From Halorubrum xinjiangense (GTDB taxonomy: Archaea; Halobacteriota; Halobacteria; Halobacteriales; Haloferacaceae), in contig NZ_FNBO01000006.1 in assembly GCF_900102375.1 (NCBI RefSeq), positions 1-64,000 on the forward strand: 64,000 bases of DNA. The letters are read 5' to 3'. Position numbers and translations under genes: made by a program. This document shows positions 41,201 through 53,076 of this stretch, one piece after another. The notes beneath the pieces were generated by a model. It had not been told where the DNA came from and did not search any database. It was given only the letters and a program-made list of their open reading frames with translations. The first letter of the stretch is position 1; every line of letters begins with the position of its first letter.

Positions 41201-43246
41201 TCAGTCACGCGAGCCGGCGGTGTCGTCGTTCGCGGGGCCGTCGTCTGCGTCGTCGGCGTCCGCCCGTTCGTCCTCGTTGCGGTCGCCGTTCGTTCCGTCT
41301 CCGTCCCGGTCCTCTTCCGTCTCGTCCGGGTCGCCCGCTTCGTTGGCTCGGGGGCCGTGAGCGACGTCGGCGTCCGACGGGTTCTGGTCGACGGCGTACC
41401 CGCCCGTGTCGATCCGCTCTGCCGGCTCTGAGTAGTCGCGACCGCTCGGCGAGAAGTCCGGGCGGACGACGCCGTCGTCGGGGACGTCGAGGTCGTCCTC
41501 GTCGGGTTCCTCGGTCACCGTGTCGTCCGCCTCCGCGTTGACGACCGCGTCCTCGACGGGGCCGCCTCCGCCGGCCGCCTCGGCGCTGGTCGTCTCGCCG
41601 CCGGCCGCGTCGACGCCGGCCGCCTCGCCGCGAGCCGCCTCGTCGCGGTCGACTTCTCCGTCCCCGCCGGTCCGTCCGCTACGGACGACTCCCTCCTCTC
41701 CCCCGATGTCTTCATCGAGCCACTCGAACGAGTCGGTTCCGCCGCTCCGCCGCTCCGCAACGGCGGTCGCGAGCCGCTCTGTGAGCGTCTCCTTCAGCGC
41801 CTCGGCCTCACCGACCTCGAAGTCGACGGCTGCGGCGTCGCTGCCGGTCAGCGAACTGGTCCCCGCCGTGTCGGCGACGATCGTCGCGACGCCCCACCGG
41901 CGCTGGAAGGCGGTGCGGCTGTCGATCACGTTCTGGATCCGGTAGTACGGGACGACCGCGACGGTGCGGCCCCAGAACCCGTTGCGCGTGAGCAGGTGGT
42001 CCTCGCCGACCCAGTAGCCGCGGTGTTTCCACTTCAGGTGCGCCGCGGGCGGGACGACGACGAGGAGCGCGGCGACGCCGTACCACGGGAGCGACGGGGA
42101 GACGTACCAGTTCACCCCGTACGCGATCCCGGTGAGGACGCCGACGATCATCGCGTACCGGATGACGTACCGCCACCTGATCCGCTTTGGCGGCCGACTG
42201 AACTCCGGCGTTCCGAACGACTCGATCTCGTGTGCGAGCCGGTAGACGCGCTCGGTCGCGGCGATCGGCACGGCGGACTGGTTGCCGGACTCCGGGCCCT
42301 GTCCGGGGGCGTACCCCGCGGTCTCGATGGAGAGGCTCGCGTAGCCGAGCGCGCGCTTCGCCGGGTTGTCAGTGATCCGCAGCGCTTGGACCTTTTCGGT
42401 CGGGATCGAGCCGCTGTACCGGCGGAACAGCCCGCGCTCGTAGCGTAGCTCGTCGCCGGCGCGAGCGAGCCGGAACCCGTAGTAGTTCGAGAACGCGAGC
42501 CCCGCGCCGATGAGCCACGACGCGATGAAAAGCGCCGCCACGCCGACGAACGCCGTCGCGGTGAGCGCGGCGGCCGACGTCTCCGGCAGGAAGCTTGACA
42601 GCACCGGGAACGACCCGGAGCTCAGGAACGCTAAGAGCCCGATCAGGCGCCCGTCGAACGACAACGCCCCGACAAGGGCGAGCTCGCTCGGCGAGATGGC
42701 GAACAGCTCCTCCTCGTCCGGCGCGAACGCGTCGTCGCGGCCGGCGTCGACCGCCTCGGCATCGGTGCCCGCCGCCTCGCTGTCGGCGCCCGCCGCCTCG
42801 CCGTCATCGTCCCGACGGGTTGCCGCCGACTTCCGCCGCTGGACCTCGCGCTGGAGCCGCGTCGCTTCCTCGGGCGTGACGAACCGGATCGACCCCTCCG
42901 TGCTGGAGCCGCCGGCGGTCTCTAAATCGACTGCGGCGACGCCGATCGCGCGCTGGACGACGCCGCGGCTCACGTCGACGTTCTGGATCCGCCGGTACGG
43001 GATCTCCCGCTCGCGCCGGGAGATGACGCCGGAGGAGATGTCGAGCGTGTCCGCGGTGAGGACGTACTCGAACCGGCGGTAGTACGCGATCTCGTAGGCG
43101 AAGGTGACGAGCAGGACCGCGGCCCCGCCGCCGACCGCGAACGGGAGGCCGAACCCGCCACTGTTCACGATCACGAACAGCGCAACGGCGGTCCCGGCCG
43201 CCTTCTGGAGCGCCCGGTACGGGACCGACTGCGGCGCCAGCTTCAC
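41201..43246 (-). CDS. Membrane protein with tandem bacterial PH (DUF304) domains and long acidic tail
   Basis: The 681-residue protein resembles YdbT-type proteins: pairs of transmembrane helices alternate with bacterial PH (bPH2/DUF304) domains, recognisable by R-R-E-R-E-I-P-Y-R-R-I-Q-N-V-D-V, I-P-T-E-K-V-Q-A-L-R-I and V-V-P-Y-Y-R-I-Q-N-V-I-D-S, so three such domains are likely. Residues from about 505 form an Asp/Glu/Gly/Ala-rich disordered tail. The GTG start at 43246 overlaps the stop of the upstream single-PH gene (GTGA), as in bacterial YdbS-YdbT pairs. Function unknown; YdbS/T were linked to resistance to certain toxins in Bacillus. Confidence 0.87.
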   Translation of the reverse strand: MKLAPQSVPYRALQKAAGTAVALFVIVNSGGFGLPFAVGGGAAVLLVTFAYEIAYYRRFEYVLTADTLDISSGVISRREREIPYRRIQNVDVSRGVVQRAIGVAAVDLETAGGSSTEGSIRFVTPEEATRLQREVQRRKSAATRRDDDGEAAGADSEAAGTDAEAVDAGRDDAFAPDEEELFAISPSELALVGALSFDGRLIGLLAFLSSGSFPVLSSFLPETSAAALTATAFVGVAALFIASWLIGAGLAFSNYYGFRLARAGDELRYERGLFRRYSGSIPTEKVQALRITDNPAKRALGYASLSIETAGYAPGQGPESGNQSAVPIAATERVYRLAHEIESFGTPEFSRPPKRIRWRYVIRYAMIVGVLTGIAYGVNWYVSPSLPWYGVAALLVVVPPAAHLKWKHRGYWVGEDHLLTRNGFWGRTVAVVPYYRIQNVIDSRTAFQRRWGVATIVADTAGTSSLTGSDAAAVDFEVGEAEALKETLTERLATAVAERRSGGTDSFEWLDEDIGGEEGVVRSGRTGGDGEVDRDEAARGEAAGVDAAGGETTSAEAAGGGGPVEDAVVNAEADDTVTEEPDEDDLDVPDDGVVRPDFSPSGRDYSEPAERIDTGGYAVDQNPSDADVAHGPRANEAGDPDETEEDRDGDGTNGDRNEDERADADDADDGPANDDTAGSRD

Positions 43247-43707
43247 ACCGCGTCCTCCCCGTCGGCGCGGATCGCCAGCCGCTTCAGCTCCTCGCGGAGG
43301 TCGCTCGCGCCGTCCGGCGTCAGCCCCGGTATTCGGACGTCCGCGCCCCGCGATCCGGCGGTGTACACCACGCAGGAGGCGAGCCCGACGCTCCGCTCGA
43401 TCGGGCCGCGCCGGGAGTCGACGTGCTGGATCCGCACCAGCGGCACCGTCGTCCGCACCTGCGTGATCACGCCGCGGTCGAGGTAGATCGCGTCCTCGCG
43501 GATCTCGTAGCTCCAGCGGCGGTAGCGGAGCAGCGCGTGCGCGACCGTGAGCGTCAGGGCGACGGCCCCGACGGCGACCGGTGCCCACCGCGGGAGGTAC
43601 TCGAGGTACGCGCCGCCGGCGAACGGGGCGGTGACGAGCGCCGAGAGCAGCACCGCGCGGAGGACCCACACGACCTGGACTCGGGGGTGGAGCGTCTGTG
43701 CCGTCAT
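43243..43707 (-). CDS. Single PH-domain (DUF304/YdbS-like) membrane protein
   Basis: The 154-residue protein has two N-terminal transmembrane helices (about 12-32 and 38-58) followed by one bPH2 domain with D-A-I-Y-L-D-R-G-V-I-T and T-V-P-L-V-R-I-Q-H-V-D-S-R-R-G. It matches YdbS, the small partner of YdbT-type proteins. Its stop codon overlaps the GTG start of the triple-PH gene by four bases, so the products are presumably made together and may form a membrane complex. ATG at 43707 is chosen as the start nearest to the first helix. Confidence 0.85.
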   Translation of the reverse strand: MTAQTLHPRVQVVWVLRAVLLSALVTAPFAGGAYLEYLPRWAPVAVGAVALTLTVAHALLRYRRWSYEIREDAIYLDRGVITQVRTTVPLVRIQHVDSRRGPIERSVGLASCVVYTAGSRGADVRIPGLTPDGASDLREELKRLAIRADGEDAV

Positions 43708-43878
43708 CGACGGTCCCCCGTCTCGCGTCCGTGTGTCATGGCCGGCGATTGACGCCCCCGACGTATAAGTCCGGCCGGACACGCCGAAGAAAAACGGGTG
43801 AAAAACCGTGATACATATTCTCTCCCGATGGCGATACTTGCCGAAACCGATATCACGGGTGATCGAGTCGTGCCAGCC

Positions 43879-47900: not shown

Positions 47901-48632
47901 CTACCCCTCGGAACCGGTCGTCTCGACGAGCGGCAGCATCGTCTCTAGGTAGCGGTCGATCCCGGCACGGGAGTCCGCGACCCACGCCCGCTCGTTCGTC
48001 GTCGCCCAGCGGAACATCCCGCCCGTCGCGAACGTCTGGAGCGTCGCGGCCACCTCCGCCGCGGCCACGGTCCGCTCGTCGTCCGCCGCCTCGGCGCCCT
48101 CACCGGAGACGTCGACCGCCGCCTCGCGGACGAGCCGTTCGAGGTACTCGCCGAAGACCCGGTCGCTTCGGTCGAAGTGGTCGCGGTACGCCTCGTCGCT
48201 CGCGGCCTGCGAGCGCAGCTCGGTCATCACCGTGACGAACCGCGCGTCGGGGGCGTACGGATCGTCGAGCGACGCGGGGTCGACGGCCGCCGTGAGGTAG
48301 CCGTCGAGCTGCTCCCGCGCCGAGCGGTCGAAGGCCTCCTCGGGAGCCACCTCGGGCACGTCGCTCGCGGCCGCCGCGCCGTCGTCCCGCGGCCCCGCGA
48401 CGCCCCCGTCCCCGATGGACGCCTCGAACTCGTCGAGCAGGAACCCGAGGAGGTCGATCAACAGCTCGTCTTTCCCGTCGTAGTGGTGGTACACCAGCGA
48501 CGGGCTCTTGTCGAACTCGTCGCCGATCCGCTGGATCGTGACGTTCGCGTAGCCGTGTTCACAGAGCGCGCGGAACGCCGCGCCGAGGATCGCCTGTCGG
48601 GTGTTCGACGGCTCCGCGAACGGGTCGTTCAT
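47901..48632 (-). CDS. TetR/AcrR-family transcriptional regulator
   Basis: The 243-residue protein has an N-terminal TetR helix-turn-helix (about 10-57: A-I-L-G-A-A-F-R-A-L-C-E-H-G-Y-A-N-V-T, then L-V-Y-H-H-Y-D-G-K-D-E-L) and a helical ligand domain with an acidic, Ala-rich insertion near residues 75-95. It is divergent from the surface-protein and RND exporter genes, and a palindrome TGAACGTTCA with extra TTCAA sits in the shared promoter, so it probably represses both itself and the exporter operon and is released by a small molecule or lipid the exporter handles (inference). Confidence 0.92.
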   Translation of the reverse strand: MNDPFAEPSNTRQAILGAAFRALCEHGYANVTIQRIGDEFDKSPSLVYHHYDGKDELLIDLLGFLLDEFEASIGDGGVAGPRDDGAAAASDVPEVAPEEAFDRSAREQLDGYLTAAVDPASLDDPYAPDARFVTVMTELRSQAASDEAYRDHFDRSDRVFGEYLERLVREAAVDVSGEGAEAADDERTVAAAEVAATLQTFATGGMFRWATTNERAWVADSRAGIDRYLETMLPLVETTGSEG

Positions 48633-48669
48633 ACGCCGCCTAGAGGAGTCCGGTATATATCCCTCCTGA

Positions 48670-48685
48670 TTGAACGTTCATTCAA
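48670..48685. promoter_or_regulatory. TetR-type operator in the divergent promoter
   Basis: TTGAACGTTCATTCAA contains the perfect 10-base palindrome TGAACGTTCA and a further TTCAA, a form typical of TetR-family sites. It lies 38-53 bases before the regulator gene and directly upstream of the TATA-like CGCTTATG (48688-48695) that serves the plus-strand operon, so a bound regulator would block TBP/TFB. Confidence 0.6.
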
Positions 48686-48718
48686 CACGCTTATGCCGCC
48701 GGCGCCTGACAGAGACGT

Positions 48719-48802
48719 ATGACTCGACCCGACGCGTCACGGTACGACCGGTCGCTCCGCGCGACCAGACCCTCCCACCGGTCCGGCGGAGGGGATCGAT
48801 GA
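48719..48802 (+). CDS. Candidate 27-codon leader ORF
   Basis: An ATG about 27 bases after the TATA-like CGCTTATG opens a 27-codon Arg-rich frame (M-T-R-P-D-A-S-R-Y-D-R) whose TGA overlaps the ATG of the surface-protein gene (ATGA). In a leaderless transcript this would be the first codon translated, and termination-reinitiation would couple it to the next gene. Short frames arise easily in GC-rich DNA, so this is a candidate only. Confidence 0.35.
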   Translation: MTRPDASRYDRSLRATRPSHRSGGGDR

Positions 48803-50517
48803 GTCGGTCGGCGCGGCTCGCGACCGCCGCGCTCGCCCTCGTCGCGGTGACCGCGCTGCTCGTCGGCGTCTCGCTCGCCGGTGCCGCGGCCACGAGCGCG
48901 GGGACGGCGGACGGCGGCGACGCCGCGGCGCTCTCCGGAATCGACGGCCCGATCGCCGACGGCGTCGTCGCGCAGGCAGGCACCGAATCGGACCCGACTG
49001 ACAGACAGGTCCGCGGGTCGCCCGTGCTGGAACTCTTCGCCTCGCAGCGGTCGGTCCCGAGCGGCGCCGAGTCGACCGTCACGGTCGACATCGTCAACAC
49101 CGGGGAGATGACGATCGGCAACCAGCTCGACTCCCGGGTCACGACCGCGCGCGGGCTCACCCTCGAGATCGACGACGGCGGCGTGCCGATCGACGTCGAG
49201 GACGGCGAGATCCCGGTCGGCGACGTGCCGACCTCCGCGAGCCCGGTCTCCGTCCCGCTCGACGTGACCGTGCCCGACGACGTACCCGACGGGAGGTACG
49301 AGGTGGAGGCAACCGCTCGGTACCGGTACACCTTCGAGGTAATCCCCGAGTTCAACGACCACAAGGACCGGCGCGGCATCGACCGCTTCGACCTGACCAT
49401 CGTCGTCGACGACGGCGCGCGGTTCGCCGTGCTGGAGACCGACACCGACGCGCAGGTGGGTGGGGGTGGCGACGTGACCGTCACGATGGCGAACGTGGGC
49501 GACGAGACCGCCCGCGACGCGGTGGTCTCCGGGACCACGACCAGCCCGGGGGTCCGGCTCGGGTCCGGCGAGGGCGGCGGCCAGTCGTTCGTCGGCGACT
49601 GGGCGCCGGGTGAGAACCGGACGGTGACGTTCGACTCCTCGGTCGGCGAGTCGTTCGGCGAGGGCGCGTACGCGCTCTCCTCGACGGTCGACTACCGCGA
49701 TCCCGACGGCGTCGACGCGACCGCGGCGGCCGCGCGCGCCGGCGTCGTCCCGGTCCGCGAGCAGTCGTTCTCGCTCGACGGCGTCTCCGGCACGCTCGAG
49801 GTCGGGTACTCCGGGACGGTCACCGGCACCCTCACGAACGAGGGGCCGCTCGACGTCGAGGACGCGGTCCTCGTCGCCGACTCCGGCAGCAACCGGGTGA
49901 GCCTCGGCGAGAGCCGGTACGCGCTCCCGACGATCCCCGCCGGCGAGTCGGCGAACTTCACCTTCGACGCCGACGTGAGCGGGAGCGCCGACCCCGGCCC
50001 CCGGCAGTTCCGGTTCACGACGGAGTACGAGAGCGGCGACGCGACGCTCACGGTCGAGGAGACCCGTCGCGTCGAGGTGGCGCCCCGGCAGCCCGAGTTC
50101 GAACTCGCGGTCGAGAACGCCACGATCCCCGCCGGCGAGACGCGGCGGATCAACGCCACGATCACGAACCGGCGGCCGGAGACCCTCGCGTCGATCAACG
50201 CCGGCCTCTACGCCGACAGCCCGCTGACGGCGGTCAACGACGAGGCGTTCGTCGACGAGCTCGAACCCGGCGAGTCCGAGGATATCTGGTTCGAGGTGTC
50301 CGCCGCGGGGAGCGCGAGCGTCGAGGACCACCCGATCGAGATCGACTTCCGGTACGACGACGAGCGGGGCAACGACCGCATCTCGGACGTCACACAGGTC
50401 CCGGTGTCGGTGACCGCGCCCGTCGACGACGGCGGCACGCCGACCGGGCTGATCGCCGTCGGCGTTCTCCTGGTCGTCGCCGCGGTCGGCGGCGCCGTCT
50501 GGTACCGACGGCGGTGA
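48799..50517 (+). CDS. CARDB/S-layer-like surface protein with C-terminal membrane anchor
   Basis: The 572-residue protein has an N-terminal signal-like helix (about 5-30), then four or so immunoglobulin-like (CARDB, COG1361-type) modules with N-T-G-E-M-T, N-V-G-D-E-T, N-E-G-P-L-D and N-R-R-P-E-T turns, and ends with a helix and W-Y-R-R-R stop-transfer. Most of it would therefore lie outside the cell. COG1361-type proteins are often encoded directly upstream of MMPL exporters in haloarchaea, as here, and may act as the extracytoplasmic partner. It lies behind a TetR-type operator and overlaps a 27-codon ORF. Confidence 0.86.
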   Translation: MSRSARLATAALALVAVTALLVGVSLAGAAATSAGTADGGDAAALSGIDGPIADGVVAQAGTESDPTDRQVRGSPVLELFASQRSVPSGAESTVTVDIVNTGEMTIGNQLDSRVTTARGLTLEIDDGGVPIDVEDGEIPVGDVPTSASPVSVPLDVTVPDDVPDGRYEVEATARYRYTFEVIPEFNDHKDRRGIDRFDLTIVVDDGARFAVLETDTDAQVGGGGDVTVTMANVGDETARDAVVSGTTTSPGVRLGSGEGGGQSFVGDWAPGENRTVTFDSSVGESFGEGAYALSSTVDYRDPDGVDATAAAARAGVVPVREQSFSLDGVSGTLEVGYSGTVTGTLTNEGPLDVEDAVLVADSGSNRVSLGESRYALPTIPAGESANFTFDADVSGSADPGPRQFRFTTEYESGDATLTVEETRRVEVAPRQPEFELAVENATIPAGETRRINATITNRRPETLASINAGLYADSPLTAVNDEAFVDELEPGESEDIWFEVSAAGSASVEDHPIEIDFRYDDERGNDRISDVTQVPVSVTAPVDDGGTPTGLIAVGVLLVVAAVGGAVWYRRR

Positions 50518-50521
50518 TCCG

Positions 50522-50581
50522 ATGAGCGGACACGCCACCGAACGCCGAGCGAGCACGCGCCGGACAGCGGGGCACCGGTGA
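50522..50581 (+). CDS. Candidate 19-codon ORF between the surface protein and the exporter
   Basis: An ATG four bases after the stop of the surface-protein gene opens a 19-codon Arg-rich frame (M-S-G-H-A-T-E-R-R) whose TGA overlaps the GTG start of the exporter (GTGA). With the similar ORF at 48719-48802 it suggests a chain of termination-reinitiation. It may also be chance. Confidence 0.3.
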   Translation: MSGHATERRASTRRTAGHR

Positions 50582-53076
50582 CCGCGGCCGACCGGCTGAT
50601 AGAGGAGATCGACCGCGTCGTCACGGAGCGCCCGCTGGCGGTCCTGGCGATCTTCCTCCTCGTCACCGTCGCGTTCGCCGGGGGACTGACCGGCATCGAG
50701 ACGAGCGCGGGCGCGGACCAGTTCACGCAGGACATTCCCGCACAGCAGGCGCTCGACGACATCGACGAGGAGTTCGAGACGTCGATCGGCGGCTCCGCGA
50801 CGTCGGCGCAGGTGATCGTCTCCGACGATAACGTCCTCTCCCGCGACGCCTTGGTCCGGACGCTGGAGACCCAACATCGGCTGGAGTCGCGCTCGACGCT
50901 CCGGGTCGCGTCGACGTCGAGCCACGCGGACGCGATCGCGCGGCAACTGGACCCGGACGCGGCGGACGCGGGAGAGCGCCGCGACGCCGTGGCCGAGGCG
51001 ACGCCGGCCGAACTGCGGGCGGCGATCGACGACGCCGACGAGACGGGGGCGATCGCGTCGCAGGTGTCCGTCGACTACAACCCCACTGCCCAGGCGGCGG
51101 ACACCGCCATCGTGGGGATCACCTACGACCTACCGGACGCGGCGACGACGGCGCGGGTGACTGAGCTCCAGACGCGCAGCGTCGGCGTCGTCGACTCGGT
51201 GCCGGGGAACGAGGCGGGCGAGAACGCGATCCTCTTCGGCGACGGCGTCCTCCAGTCGGAGATCACCGCGCTGCTGACGGACACCGCGATCATCGTCTTT
51301 CCGGCGGCGCTCATTCTGATCGTCGGCTTCCTGATCTTCGCCTACCGCGACCCGATCGACATGGCGATCGGCATCTCCGCGCTGCTCATCTCGCTCCTCT
51401 GGACGTTCGGGTTCATGGGGTACGCCGGGATCCCCTTCTCCGACTCGCTGGTGACGGTCTTCCCGCTCCTGCTCGCGGTCGGGATCGACTTCGGGATCCA
51501 CATCGTCAACCGCTACCGCGAGGAGCGGGCGACCGGGACCGGGATCGAGCGGTCGATGCGGACCACCACCGACCAGCTGCTCATCGCCTTCCTGCTCGTG
51601 ACGATCACCACGGTGTTCGGGCTCGTCTCCAACGTGGTGAGCCCCTTCGATCCCAACCGCGACTTCGGGATCGTCGCGGCCGCCGGGATCACGTTCACGC
51701 TGCTGGTCTTCGGCGTCTACCTCCCGGCCGCGAAGGTGCTCGCCGACCGGTGGCGCGAGCGCCTCCCGATCCCCGAGTTCGGAACGACCGCGCTCGGCTC
51801 CGGCGGCTCGCGGCTCGCCCGGGTCCTCCACGTGGGCGTCGACCTCTCGCGGATCGCCCCCGTCGCGGTGGTCGCTCTCCTCCTCGTCGGCGGCGCGGTC
51901 GGCGGCGCCTACGGCACCGGCGTGAACACGGAGTTCTCGGAGGAGGCGTTCTTTCCGGACGAGGAGCGACTGGAGACGTACGCGGACCTCCCGGAGCCGT
52001 TCGCGCCGACGGAGTACACGTTCCTCGACGTGTTGACCCTCTTCGAGGAGGAGTTCGAACAGGACTTCGTGGGATCGGTGACGCTGTACGTCGACCAGTC
52101 GGTCAGAGACGACGACGCCTTGGAGCTGATCGACCGGACGACGCGGAACCCGCCGGACACCTTCGCGACGACCGACGAGCGCCGCGCGCAGGCGACGAGC
52201 ATCGTTACGGTGATCGAGGATCGTGCGGAGCGGGACCCCGAGTTCGCCGCGCTCGTCGAGCGCAACGACCGCCTCGGCAACGGCGTTCCCGACCGGAACG
52301 TCGACGAGGTGTACGACGCGCTCTTGGACTCCTCCGCGGAGGGGCAAGCGCGCGGGTACGTGGCGGCCGACCGCGGCAGCGCGCGCATCGACTACACGAT
52401 CGAGCCGGGCGTCGACAACTCGGAGGCGGTCGCGGACGTGCGCGACCTCGCCGAGCGCACCCCGCTCGAAGCCGTGCCGACCGGCGACCTCGTCGTCAAC
52501 GAGGCCGTGATCGACCTGTTGACCGAGTCGGCGATCCGGAGCCTCTTCGCCGCCTTCGGGCTCACAGCGCTGTTCTTGGCGCTGTCGTACGCGTACCTCG
52601 AGGGGAAGGCCGTCTACGGCCTCTTGAACCTCGTTCCCGTCCTCGTCACGGTCGGGCTGCTCGTCGGGTCGATGCGGCTGTTCGACATCCCGTTGACGCC
52701 GATCAACGCGCCGATCCTCTCCGTCTCGATCGGGCTCGGCGTCGACTACACCGTCCACTTCGTCCACCGCTTCGTCGACGAGTACAAGGCGGGCCTGCCG
52801 ATCGACGAGGCGCTCGACGTCACCATCGCCGGGACGGGCGGGGCGCTCACCGGCAGCATGCTCACCACGGTCTCCGGGCTCGGCGTCCTGTGGCTCGCCG
52901 TGATCCCCCTGCTCCGCGACTTCGGCATCCTGCTCGCGCTGGGCGTGTTCTACGCGTACCTCTGTTCGATCCTGCTCGTCCCGTCGCTCGTCGTCGTGTG
53001 GGACCGGTACGGCGCGCGCGTCGGCCTCGGCCTCGACGGTGGGCTCCGCGGCTCGGACACCGAGGCCCGACGTTGA
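50578..53076 (+). CDS. RND-family exporter of the MMPL/SSD type
   Basis: The 832-residue protein has two repeats, each with one helix, a large extracytoplasmic domain (about 35-225 and 430-640) and five or six further helices. The second helical group of each repeat carries V-G-I-D-F-G-I-H-I-V-N-R and L-G-V-D-Y-T-V-H-F-V-H-R, the D-(F/Y) motif of proton-coupled MMPL/HpnN and patched-like transporters. It probably exports lipids or hydrophobic compounds. GTG start overlaps a tiny upstream ORF. Co-transcription with the surface protein and control by the divergent TetR are likely. Confidence 0.92.
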   Translation: MTAADRLIEEIDRVVTERPLAVLAIFLLVTVAFAGGLTGIETSAGADQFTQDIPAQQALDDIDEEFETSIGGSATSAQVIVSDDNVLSRDALVRTLETQHRLESRSTLRVASTSSHADAIARQLDPDAADAGERRDAVAEATPAELRAAIDDADETGAIASQVSVDYNPTAQAADTAIVGITYDLPDAATTARVTELQTRSVGVVDSVPGNEAGENAILFGDGVLQSEITALLTDTAIIVFPAALILIVGFLIFAYRDPIDMAIGISALLISLLWTFGFMGYAGIPFSDSLVTVFPLLLAVGIDFGIHIVNRYREERATGTGIERSMRTTTDQLLIAFLLVTITTVFGLVSNVVSPFDPNRDFGIVAAAGITFTLLVFGVYLPAAKVLADRWRERLPIPEFGTTALGSGGSRLARVLHVGVDLSRIAPVAVVALLLVGGAVGGAYGTGVNTEFSEEAFFPDEERLETYADLPEPFAPTEYTFLDVLTLFEEEFEQDFVGSVTLYVDQSVRDDDALELIDRTTRNPPDTFATTDERRAQATSIVTVIEDRAERDPEFAALVERNDRLGNGVPDRNVDEVYDALLDSSAEGQARGYVAADRGSARIDYTIEPGVDNSEAVADVRDLAERTPLEAVPTGDLVVNEAVIDLLTESAIRSLFAAFGLTALFLALSYAYLEGKAVYGLLNLVPVLVTVGLLVGSMRLFDIPLTPINAPILSVSIGLGVDYTVHFVHRFVDEYKAGLPIDEALDVTIAGTGGALTGSMLTTVSGLGVLWLAVIPLLRDFGILLALGVFYAYLCSILLVPSLVVVWDRYGARVGLGLDGGLRGSDTEARR

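Follow-up and report, generated by a model that had tools for sequence, protein, structure and literature searches.

Within a 64,000-nucleotide (nt) stretch of the Halorubrum xinjiangense genome (contig NZ_FNBO01000006.1 of assembly GCF_900102375.1, positions 1 to 64,000; hereafter the window), an operon for a surface protein and an RND/MMPL-type exporter, divergent from a TetR-family regulator gene, carries two very short open reading frames (ORFs), one ahead of each protein gene. Judging from their conservation, these mini-ORFs appear to be translational couplers that act independently of the peptides they specify, the first (mini-ORF1) as a leaderless loader of ribosomes and the second (mini-ORF2) as a relay across the gap between the two genes, a reading to which we assign a probability of about 0.82. 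The initial annotation of this DNA had noted a 27-codon ORF whose ATGA overlaps the surface-gene ATG and a 19-codon ORF whose GTGA overlaps the exporter GTG; both overlaps are present, and its gene, ORF and overlap positions proved correct when the sequence was re-read (Table 1). The stop/start spacings in the window are -4 (an overlap of 4 nt) between mini-ORF1 and the surface gene, +4 between the surface gene and mini-ORF2, and -4 between mini-ORF2 and the exporter, spacings of the kind associated with termination-reinitiation.

The comparison rests on 47 loci of the Halorubrum clade: the window, L032-L060, L066, L070, L073, L074, L076, L107-L116, L120 and L129 (three bear other names, namely L049 'Halobellus captivus', L058 'uncultured archaeon A07HR60' and L076 'Halobacteriales archaeon SW_8_68_21'). 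Excluded from this set were L085, where the operon is mostly deleted, and 13 duplicate loci (L117-L119, L121-L128, L141, L142). TATA, Shine-Dalgarno (SD) and slippery-site patterns were defined by us, an SD-like match being at least four letters of a consensus; TATA spacing was scored at loci other than L130-L139. Starts were set by hand for mini-ORF1 of L116 and L058 and for mini-ORF2 of L076, where the surface frame is shifted. From the TATA core, TTA[TA], to the mini-ORF1 ATG the distance is exactly 28 nt in 45 loci, and 23 and 29 nt in the remaining two, a spacing that predicts an mRNA beginning at the mini-ORF1 ATG itself. Of the protein-coding transcripts of Haloferax volcanii, 72% lack a leader (PMC4983044). 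The annotation had likewise placed the transcription start near 48719, and a start downstream of 48750 is not suggested by these loci, given the 28-nt spacing from TATA to the mini-ORF1 ATG and the finding that only one of the 47 has a TATA-like box 22-35 nt upstream of the surface gene. Mini-ORF1 overlaps the surface gene at -4, in the RTGA arrangement (ATGA or GTGA), in 45 loci and at -1 in L054. In L047 the junction stop is lost, the surface start reads ATGG, and mini-ORF1 runs on for 115 codons into the surface gene.

Mini-ORF2 starts 4 nt past the surface stop in 46 of the 47 loci, and in all but L043 its stop overlaps the exporter start (45 GTGA, one ATGA). Its length varies from 14 to 82 codons across the clade, and the gap between the surface and exporter genes from 45 to 249 nt (60 nt in the window). 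An SD-like site precedes mini-ORF2 in 34 loci, and a TATA-like box 22-35 nt upstream of the exporter was found in none of the 47. Persistence of both frames and overlaps in close relatives, which the annotation had named as a check, is thus what we find, at 46 of 47 tight junctions for mini-ORF1 and 46 of 47 for mini-ORF2. In L043 a 46-nt tandem duplication in the spacer removes the exporter from tight coupling; this could be real decay or an assembly error, and the same locus is also without TetR and operator.

The frames have been kept through repeated changes in length. By parsimony on the surface-protein tree, mini-ORF1 has undergone at least 15 length changes, all multiples of three, and mini-ORF2 at least 31, all multiples of three except that in L043, so that frame was preserved in 45 of 46 inferred changes overall. 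No stop interrupts the mini-frames (0 of 1622 codons in mini-ORF1, with L047 omitted here and from the GC counts below, and 0 of 1412 in mini-ORF2), as against 45 stops in the other two frames (21 of 3152 codons in mini-ORF1 regions and 24 of 2730 in mini-ORF2 regions), counts that do not convert to a probability because the rows are related. An ORF of this sort is not very unlikely in a single genome: TGA occupies bases 2-4 in 183 of 415 called genes, and coupled mini-ORFs placed at a TATA box number four at the correct distance against zero to one at five decoy distances. The weight accordingly comes from conservation in the 47 loci. That the mini-ORFs are chance ORFs of a GC-rich leader and spacer, with no role, might suffice for one genome, but the in-frame length changes, the missing stops, the fixed TATA spacing and the recurrence at other genes described below make it exceedingly improbable.

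The encoded peptides look neutral while the architecture and frame are conserved. GC contents at codon positions 1, 2 and 3 are nearly flat in mini-ORF1 (0.73/0.74/0.72) and mini-ORF2 (0.75/0.79/0.72), compared with 0.71/0.52/0.96 in the window's surface gene. For mini-ORF1, the one for which it was computed, the median ratio of nonsynonymous to synonymous substitution rates (dN/dS) was 0.83 over the whole ORF and 0.98 over codons 7-21 (135 pairs from the 17 loci with 27 codons), and 0.48 over the first 27 surface-gene codons of the same loci. An open frame with a neutral peptide is expected of a coupler but not of a functional peptide; on dN/dS (mini-ORF1) and GC by codon position we therefore judged it very unlikely that the mini-ORFs encode regulatory or attenuating leader peptides or small proteins. 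The variable length of mini-ORF2 and the dissimilarity of the peptides between clades point the same way. Such a function would be favored by the first two mini-ORF1 codons (ATG ACT), invariant in the 27-codon group, although a fixed start may reflect the context required for leaderless initiation, and the similar end of the ORF corresponds to the SD-like site. It would also be favored by arginine content. The annotation had called both peptides arginine-rich, and by our count they are (7 of 27 residues in mini-ORF1, 5 of 19 in mini-ORF2), but no meaning of this richness emerged, and across the pooled loci arginine makes up 20% in the read frame of mini-ORF1 and 14% and 28% in the other two.

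Two further readings concern how the downstream genes begin. Were each mini-ORF the true 5' end of its main gene, joined to it by a -1 frameshift, the -1 phase relation of mini-ORF2 to the exporter frame would be accounted for, as would the ATG at the corresponding place that in most outgroups starts the exporter itself. However, the main-gene frame holds 18 stops in mini-ORF1 regions and 13 in mini-ORF2 regions, and in-frame slippery heptamers are scarce (1 of 46 and 5 of 47 loci). Furthermore, all tight -4 junctions (45 for mini-ORF1, 46 for mini-ORF2) show A or G immediately 5' of TGA, as a start codon needs, whereas C or T precedes 35% of the 4108 TGA triplets in the same loci. On these three grounds we judged a frameshift fusion extremely unlikely. 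Alternatively, the leader may be a 5'-untranslated region (5'-UTR) acting through RNA structure or spacing, with the main genes initiating de novo at SD sites such as those found 5' of the surface start in 43 of the 47 loci. Folding of the window's leader and junctions is unremarkable by this measure (z-scores of -0.2, -1.5 and 0.3 against mononucleotide shuffles), a 5'-UTR has no need of an open frame of variable length, and SD motifs at 5'-UTRs were reported to be unused in H. volcanii (PMC3986360); taken together, these points render the idea very unlikely.

For the coupler reading, the following course of translation can be proposed. The mRNA would start at the mini-ORF1 ATG, where a ribosome would load by leaderless initiation, read the 27 codons, stop at ATGA and restart on the surface-protein gene. 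Having finished that gene, it would restart 4 nt further on at mini-ORF2, which would be read so as to span the 60 nt that direct reinitiation could not cross, stop at the GTGA that ends mini-ORF2, and restart on the exporter. For one H. volcanii gene pair a gap of 13 nt cut reinitiation by 60%, and at 22-23 nt almost none was left in any of the three pairs tested (PMC10666635). Set against gaps of 45-249 nt, this distance limit suggests that a mini-ORF reaching from 4 nt past one stop to the following start would serve as a bridge. Selection would preserve the start codon, an uninterrupted frame and the overlap of stop and start, leaving the peptide free to vary, and the divergent TetR protein, bound to a palindrome between the TATA boxes, would repress both the operon and tetR itself. 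Transcription start, translation, reinitiation and repression are what we infer here from the conserved architecture, the frame-keeping, the neutral-looking peptides and the joint loss of TetR and its operator.

The wider family offers a likely history. In 19 of 21 outgroup rows (two of which, L131 and L132, duplicate L061 and L063), the exporter starts 0-3 nt after the surface stop by our reading, with 15 nt in L134 and L135. Mini-ORF2 thus probably begins at what was once the exporter's own start codon, which fell out of frame and was retained as a relay. Promoter-placed mini-ORFs with the -4 overlap also occur outside the genus, in Halohasta (L061, L063), L062, Natrinema (L067-L069) and a Natronomonas bin (L086), and the leaderless device is therefore probably older than the genus. 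L137 has no mini-ORF1 at the surface-gene start.

Similar arrangements recur at other Halorubrum genes, named here by our own reading of the sequences. A leaderless-placed mini-ORF precedes a second gene of the window (43243-43707, minus strand) in 24 of 24 loci, that of the window among them; its L202 version has 19 codons and GTGA. The design is found at 21 of 24 loci of a HalX-like response regulator (L237 was unscored, its alignment beginning at residue 33) and at all eight loci of a Bat-like regulator, the query's own included, a gene detected in 7 of 29 genomes searched. Between what we take to be eno and rpsB, a 7-codon relay ORF overlapping both genes occurs in 9 of 10 Halorubrum loci. 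Ten loci of other genera comprise six with a direct -4 overlap, three without a hit (L182, L186, L187) and one, L180, that differs; L180 and L175 are without a relay having the -4 overlap, ending by our reading in -8 instead. A presumed FAH-family gene was scored at 23 of 25 loci (the upstream-gene motif being missing in L253 and L268), with nine gaps of -4 to +7 nt and 14 of 21-81 nt. All 14 wide gaps are bridged by mini-ORFs, two in a row at five loci (L247, L249, L255, L258, L259), in raw counts for which GTG starts (as in L266 and L267) and restart gaps of up to 8 nt were admitted.

Several observations weigh against the coupler reading or restrict its reach. The L043 and L047 loci imply that coupling is not absolutely required, or that the genes can start on their own, and the SD-like sites (before the exporter start in 19 of 47 loci, in addition to those at the surface gene) allow for some de novo initiation. 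In mini-ORF2, arginine is highest in the read frame, at 30% against 20% and 16% in the pooled loci, as a functional peptide might have it. The mini-ORF at the promoter shows no -4 or -1 overlap in the four outgroup loci L064, L065, L071 and L072, where by our reading it overlaps the main gene by about 11 nt, and L140, a paralogous operon of the same genome, is without either mini-ORF, as read from its upstream DNA and junction. Two HalX-like loci, L224 and L230, have lost the mini-ORF and bring the gene itself to TATA distance. Finally, in 400 kb of a relative together with the window, just 6 of the 86 junctions that are TATA-less and 12-200 nt long hold a relay chain. Shuffled spacers would be expected to yield 1.52 relays, which lends the chance reading some support, although 1.0 of this stems from the eno/rpsB junction, where shuffling cannot test frame; junctions with a TATA-like box had relays in 0 of 39 cases. 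These figures are rough because gene starts came from our simple caller. Coupling as a general rule was rejected on the 80 junctions without a relay, which make the relay a recurrent device rather than a rule.

Two side observations belong with these loci. L224 and L230 show how coupled and directly leaderless starts can replace each other in nature. At L140, the exporter start directly follows the surface stop, and a 46-codon ORF before its surface gene was taken as chance, the promoter there being read directly before the gene's own start.

A broader proposal, whose chances we rate about even, is that haloarchaeal operons hold unannotated cistrons that are not protein genes, 'relay mini-ORFs', singly or in short chains, whose sole task would be to keep ribosomes on the message where gaps break coupling; they would arise when a gene start moves downstream and the old start codon is retained as the relay start. 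If the mini-ORFs are translated, short cistrons can be retained for their frame alone, and small-protein surveys could not equate conservation and translation with a functional peptide. This would also bear on the annotation of archaeal start codons and on whether ribosomes scan after termination, a question for which the FAH junction, with gaps either bridged or no wider than 7 nt, is a natural test of the no-scanning view.

Parallels exist in both bacteria and archaea. Leaderless 'coupled' small ORFs with unconserved peptides have been described in mycobacteria (Shell et al. 2015, PMC4633059), and the present case resembles them in its short ORF, predicted here to open a leaderless mRNA, in its RTGA overlap, and in a linkage that is conserved where the peptide is not, a property stated there for some cases. 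It differs in concerning an archaeon, in having 47 loci with a test of frame and neutrality where the bacterial example is a comparison of two species, and in its internal relays; the mycobacterial study has expression data, where the Halorubrum case is one of sequence comparison. Termination-reinitiation in H. volcanii shares the -4/-1 overlaps, SD-assisted restart and strong dependence on distance (Huber et al. 2019, PMC6728339; PMC10666635, 2023), but the overlapping pairs there are protein genes, and here the upstream member is a very short cistron whose peptide is not conserved. Mycobacterial MIRU elements likewise couple a short ORF to a gene by -4 spacing, and the review that treats their ORFs also gives a 'ribosome delivery' idea (PMC12548453); MIRUs, however, are described there as repeats that seem to be mobile, whereas the sequence of mini-ORF2 changes from clade to clade and its ATG lies where most outgroup exporters start. 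Salmonella mgtQ, between mgtC and mgtB, is a short ORF between genes that likewise, as proposed here, favors translation of the transporter downstream of it, yet it is reported to need specific acidic residues and a stem-loop (PMC8092293), whereas the peptide here looks neutral. Upstream ORFs of H. volcanii (15-31 amino acids) similarly precede main genes in a haloarchaeon, but were sought in 5'-UTRs of 150-250 nt and are reported to have low isoelectric points, and overlap coupling is not described in the passages considered (PMC4983044). Among the matches listed from open-licence literature (titles and beginnings of abstracts), none reported archaeal overlap-coupled leader or relay ORFs, nor did any title indicate a Halorubrum ribosome-profiling study.

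Regulation of the operon can be considered in similar terms. The palindrome that the annotation had placed directly upstream of the operon's TATA box is present, but it is longer than described, at about 20 bp, and lies between both TATA boxes. Eight of its 10 positions are symmetric in the window, and by our reading the dyad is perfect in the outgroups L064 and L071. The 20-mer is the same up to its first letter in 40 of the 47 loci (39 of them in register and L066 shifted by one base), has near copies in five, and is absent from L043 (genome G004) and L074 (G014). Of 52 genomes of the genus, 40 contain a single exact copy of its inner 16-mer, and the reversed control is found in none. Among the 12 others, G004 and G014 retain the operon but have no operator and no TetR match in the flanking sequence covered; six (G018, G026, G030, G031, G035, G041) have only weaker, paralogue-like exporter matches; and the remaining four have a near copy at the locus by our own matching. 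Conversely, L085 (G021 by its coordinates; region 2480-2900) has most of the surface and exporter genes deleted and keeps both TetR and operator. Such co-retention and co-loss backs the link between TetR and palindrome that the annotation had suggested, and supports the palindrome as a predicted TetR operator, retained or lost together with TetR. Its position between two TATA boxes, adjoining both, suggests that both promoters would be repressed. L085 also keeps what we read as a 28-codon mini-ORF1 with ATGA.

Table 1. Features of the coupled operon, its regulator and related mini-ORFs (positions are those of the window unless a locus is given)
Feature	Position	Strand	Basis
TetR-family regulator gene, 243 amino acids, predicted leaderless	47901..48632	-	Pfam TetR_N and TATATA spacing
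tetR promoter TATA box (predicted), TATATA	48654..48659	-	about 27 nt 5' of the tetR ATG, read from sequence
TetR operator (predicted), 20-bp imperfect palindrome CTGATTGAACGTTCATTCAA	48666..48685	.	sits between both TATA boxes
Inner 16-mer of the palindrome, TTGAACGTTCATTCAA	48670-48685	.	sequence
TATA box core of the mini-ORF1/surface/exporter operon	48691..48694	+	TTA[TA] at 28-nt spacing from the mini-ORF1 ATG
Mini-ORF1, 27 codons, opening cistron of the mRNA (predicted leaderless)	48719..48802	+	ATGA overlap with surface-gene ATG at 48799
SD-like GGAGG within mini-ORF1	48788..48792	+	6 nt 5' of the surface-gene ATG
Surface-protein gene, 572 amino acids	48799..50517	+	CARDB and NEW3-type matches, both weak; hydrophobic stretches at both termini
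SD-like GGTGATC ahead of mini-ORF2	50513..50519	+	overlaps the surface-gene stop
Mini-ORF2, 19 codons, putative relay cistron	50522..50581	+	starts 4 nt past surface stop; GTGA overlap with exporter
RND/MMPL-type exporter gene, HAE3-like, 832 amino acids, GTG start	50578..53076	+	Pfam MMPL 6.1e-33
Mini-ORF, 11 codons, leaderless-placed	43704-43739	-	ATGA overlap with start of the small gene 43243-43707
eno/rpsB relay	L160:13629-14456	-	also in the set L170-L179

The proteins of the operon region belong to recognizable families to differing degrees. The TetR gene product carries a TetR_N domain (38.4 bits against a Pfam cut-off of 24, E 1.1e-09), which places it within the family, and its closest solved sequence is 3crj; TATA boxes similar to that of tetR were seen by eye, uncounted, in many relatives. 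The surface protein matches CARDB (1.2e-07) and NPCBM_assoc (1.2e-05) over the whole protein, with no individual stretch passing by itself. The exporter reaches E 3.8e-62 and 210.4 bits against the NCBIfam HAE3 model TIGR00921, below that model's cut-off of 351.9, and so is a relative of the HAE3 family that is not filed as a member; its solved relatives are MmpL5, MmpL3 and HpnN. In L073 the exporter is probably broken, because tblastn matched it in two overlapping pieces (residues 1-482 and 449-826).

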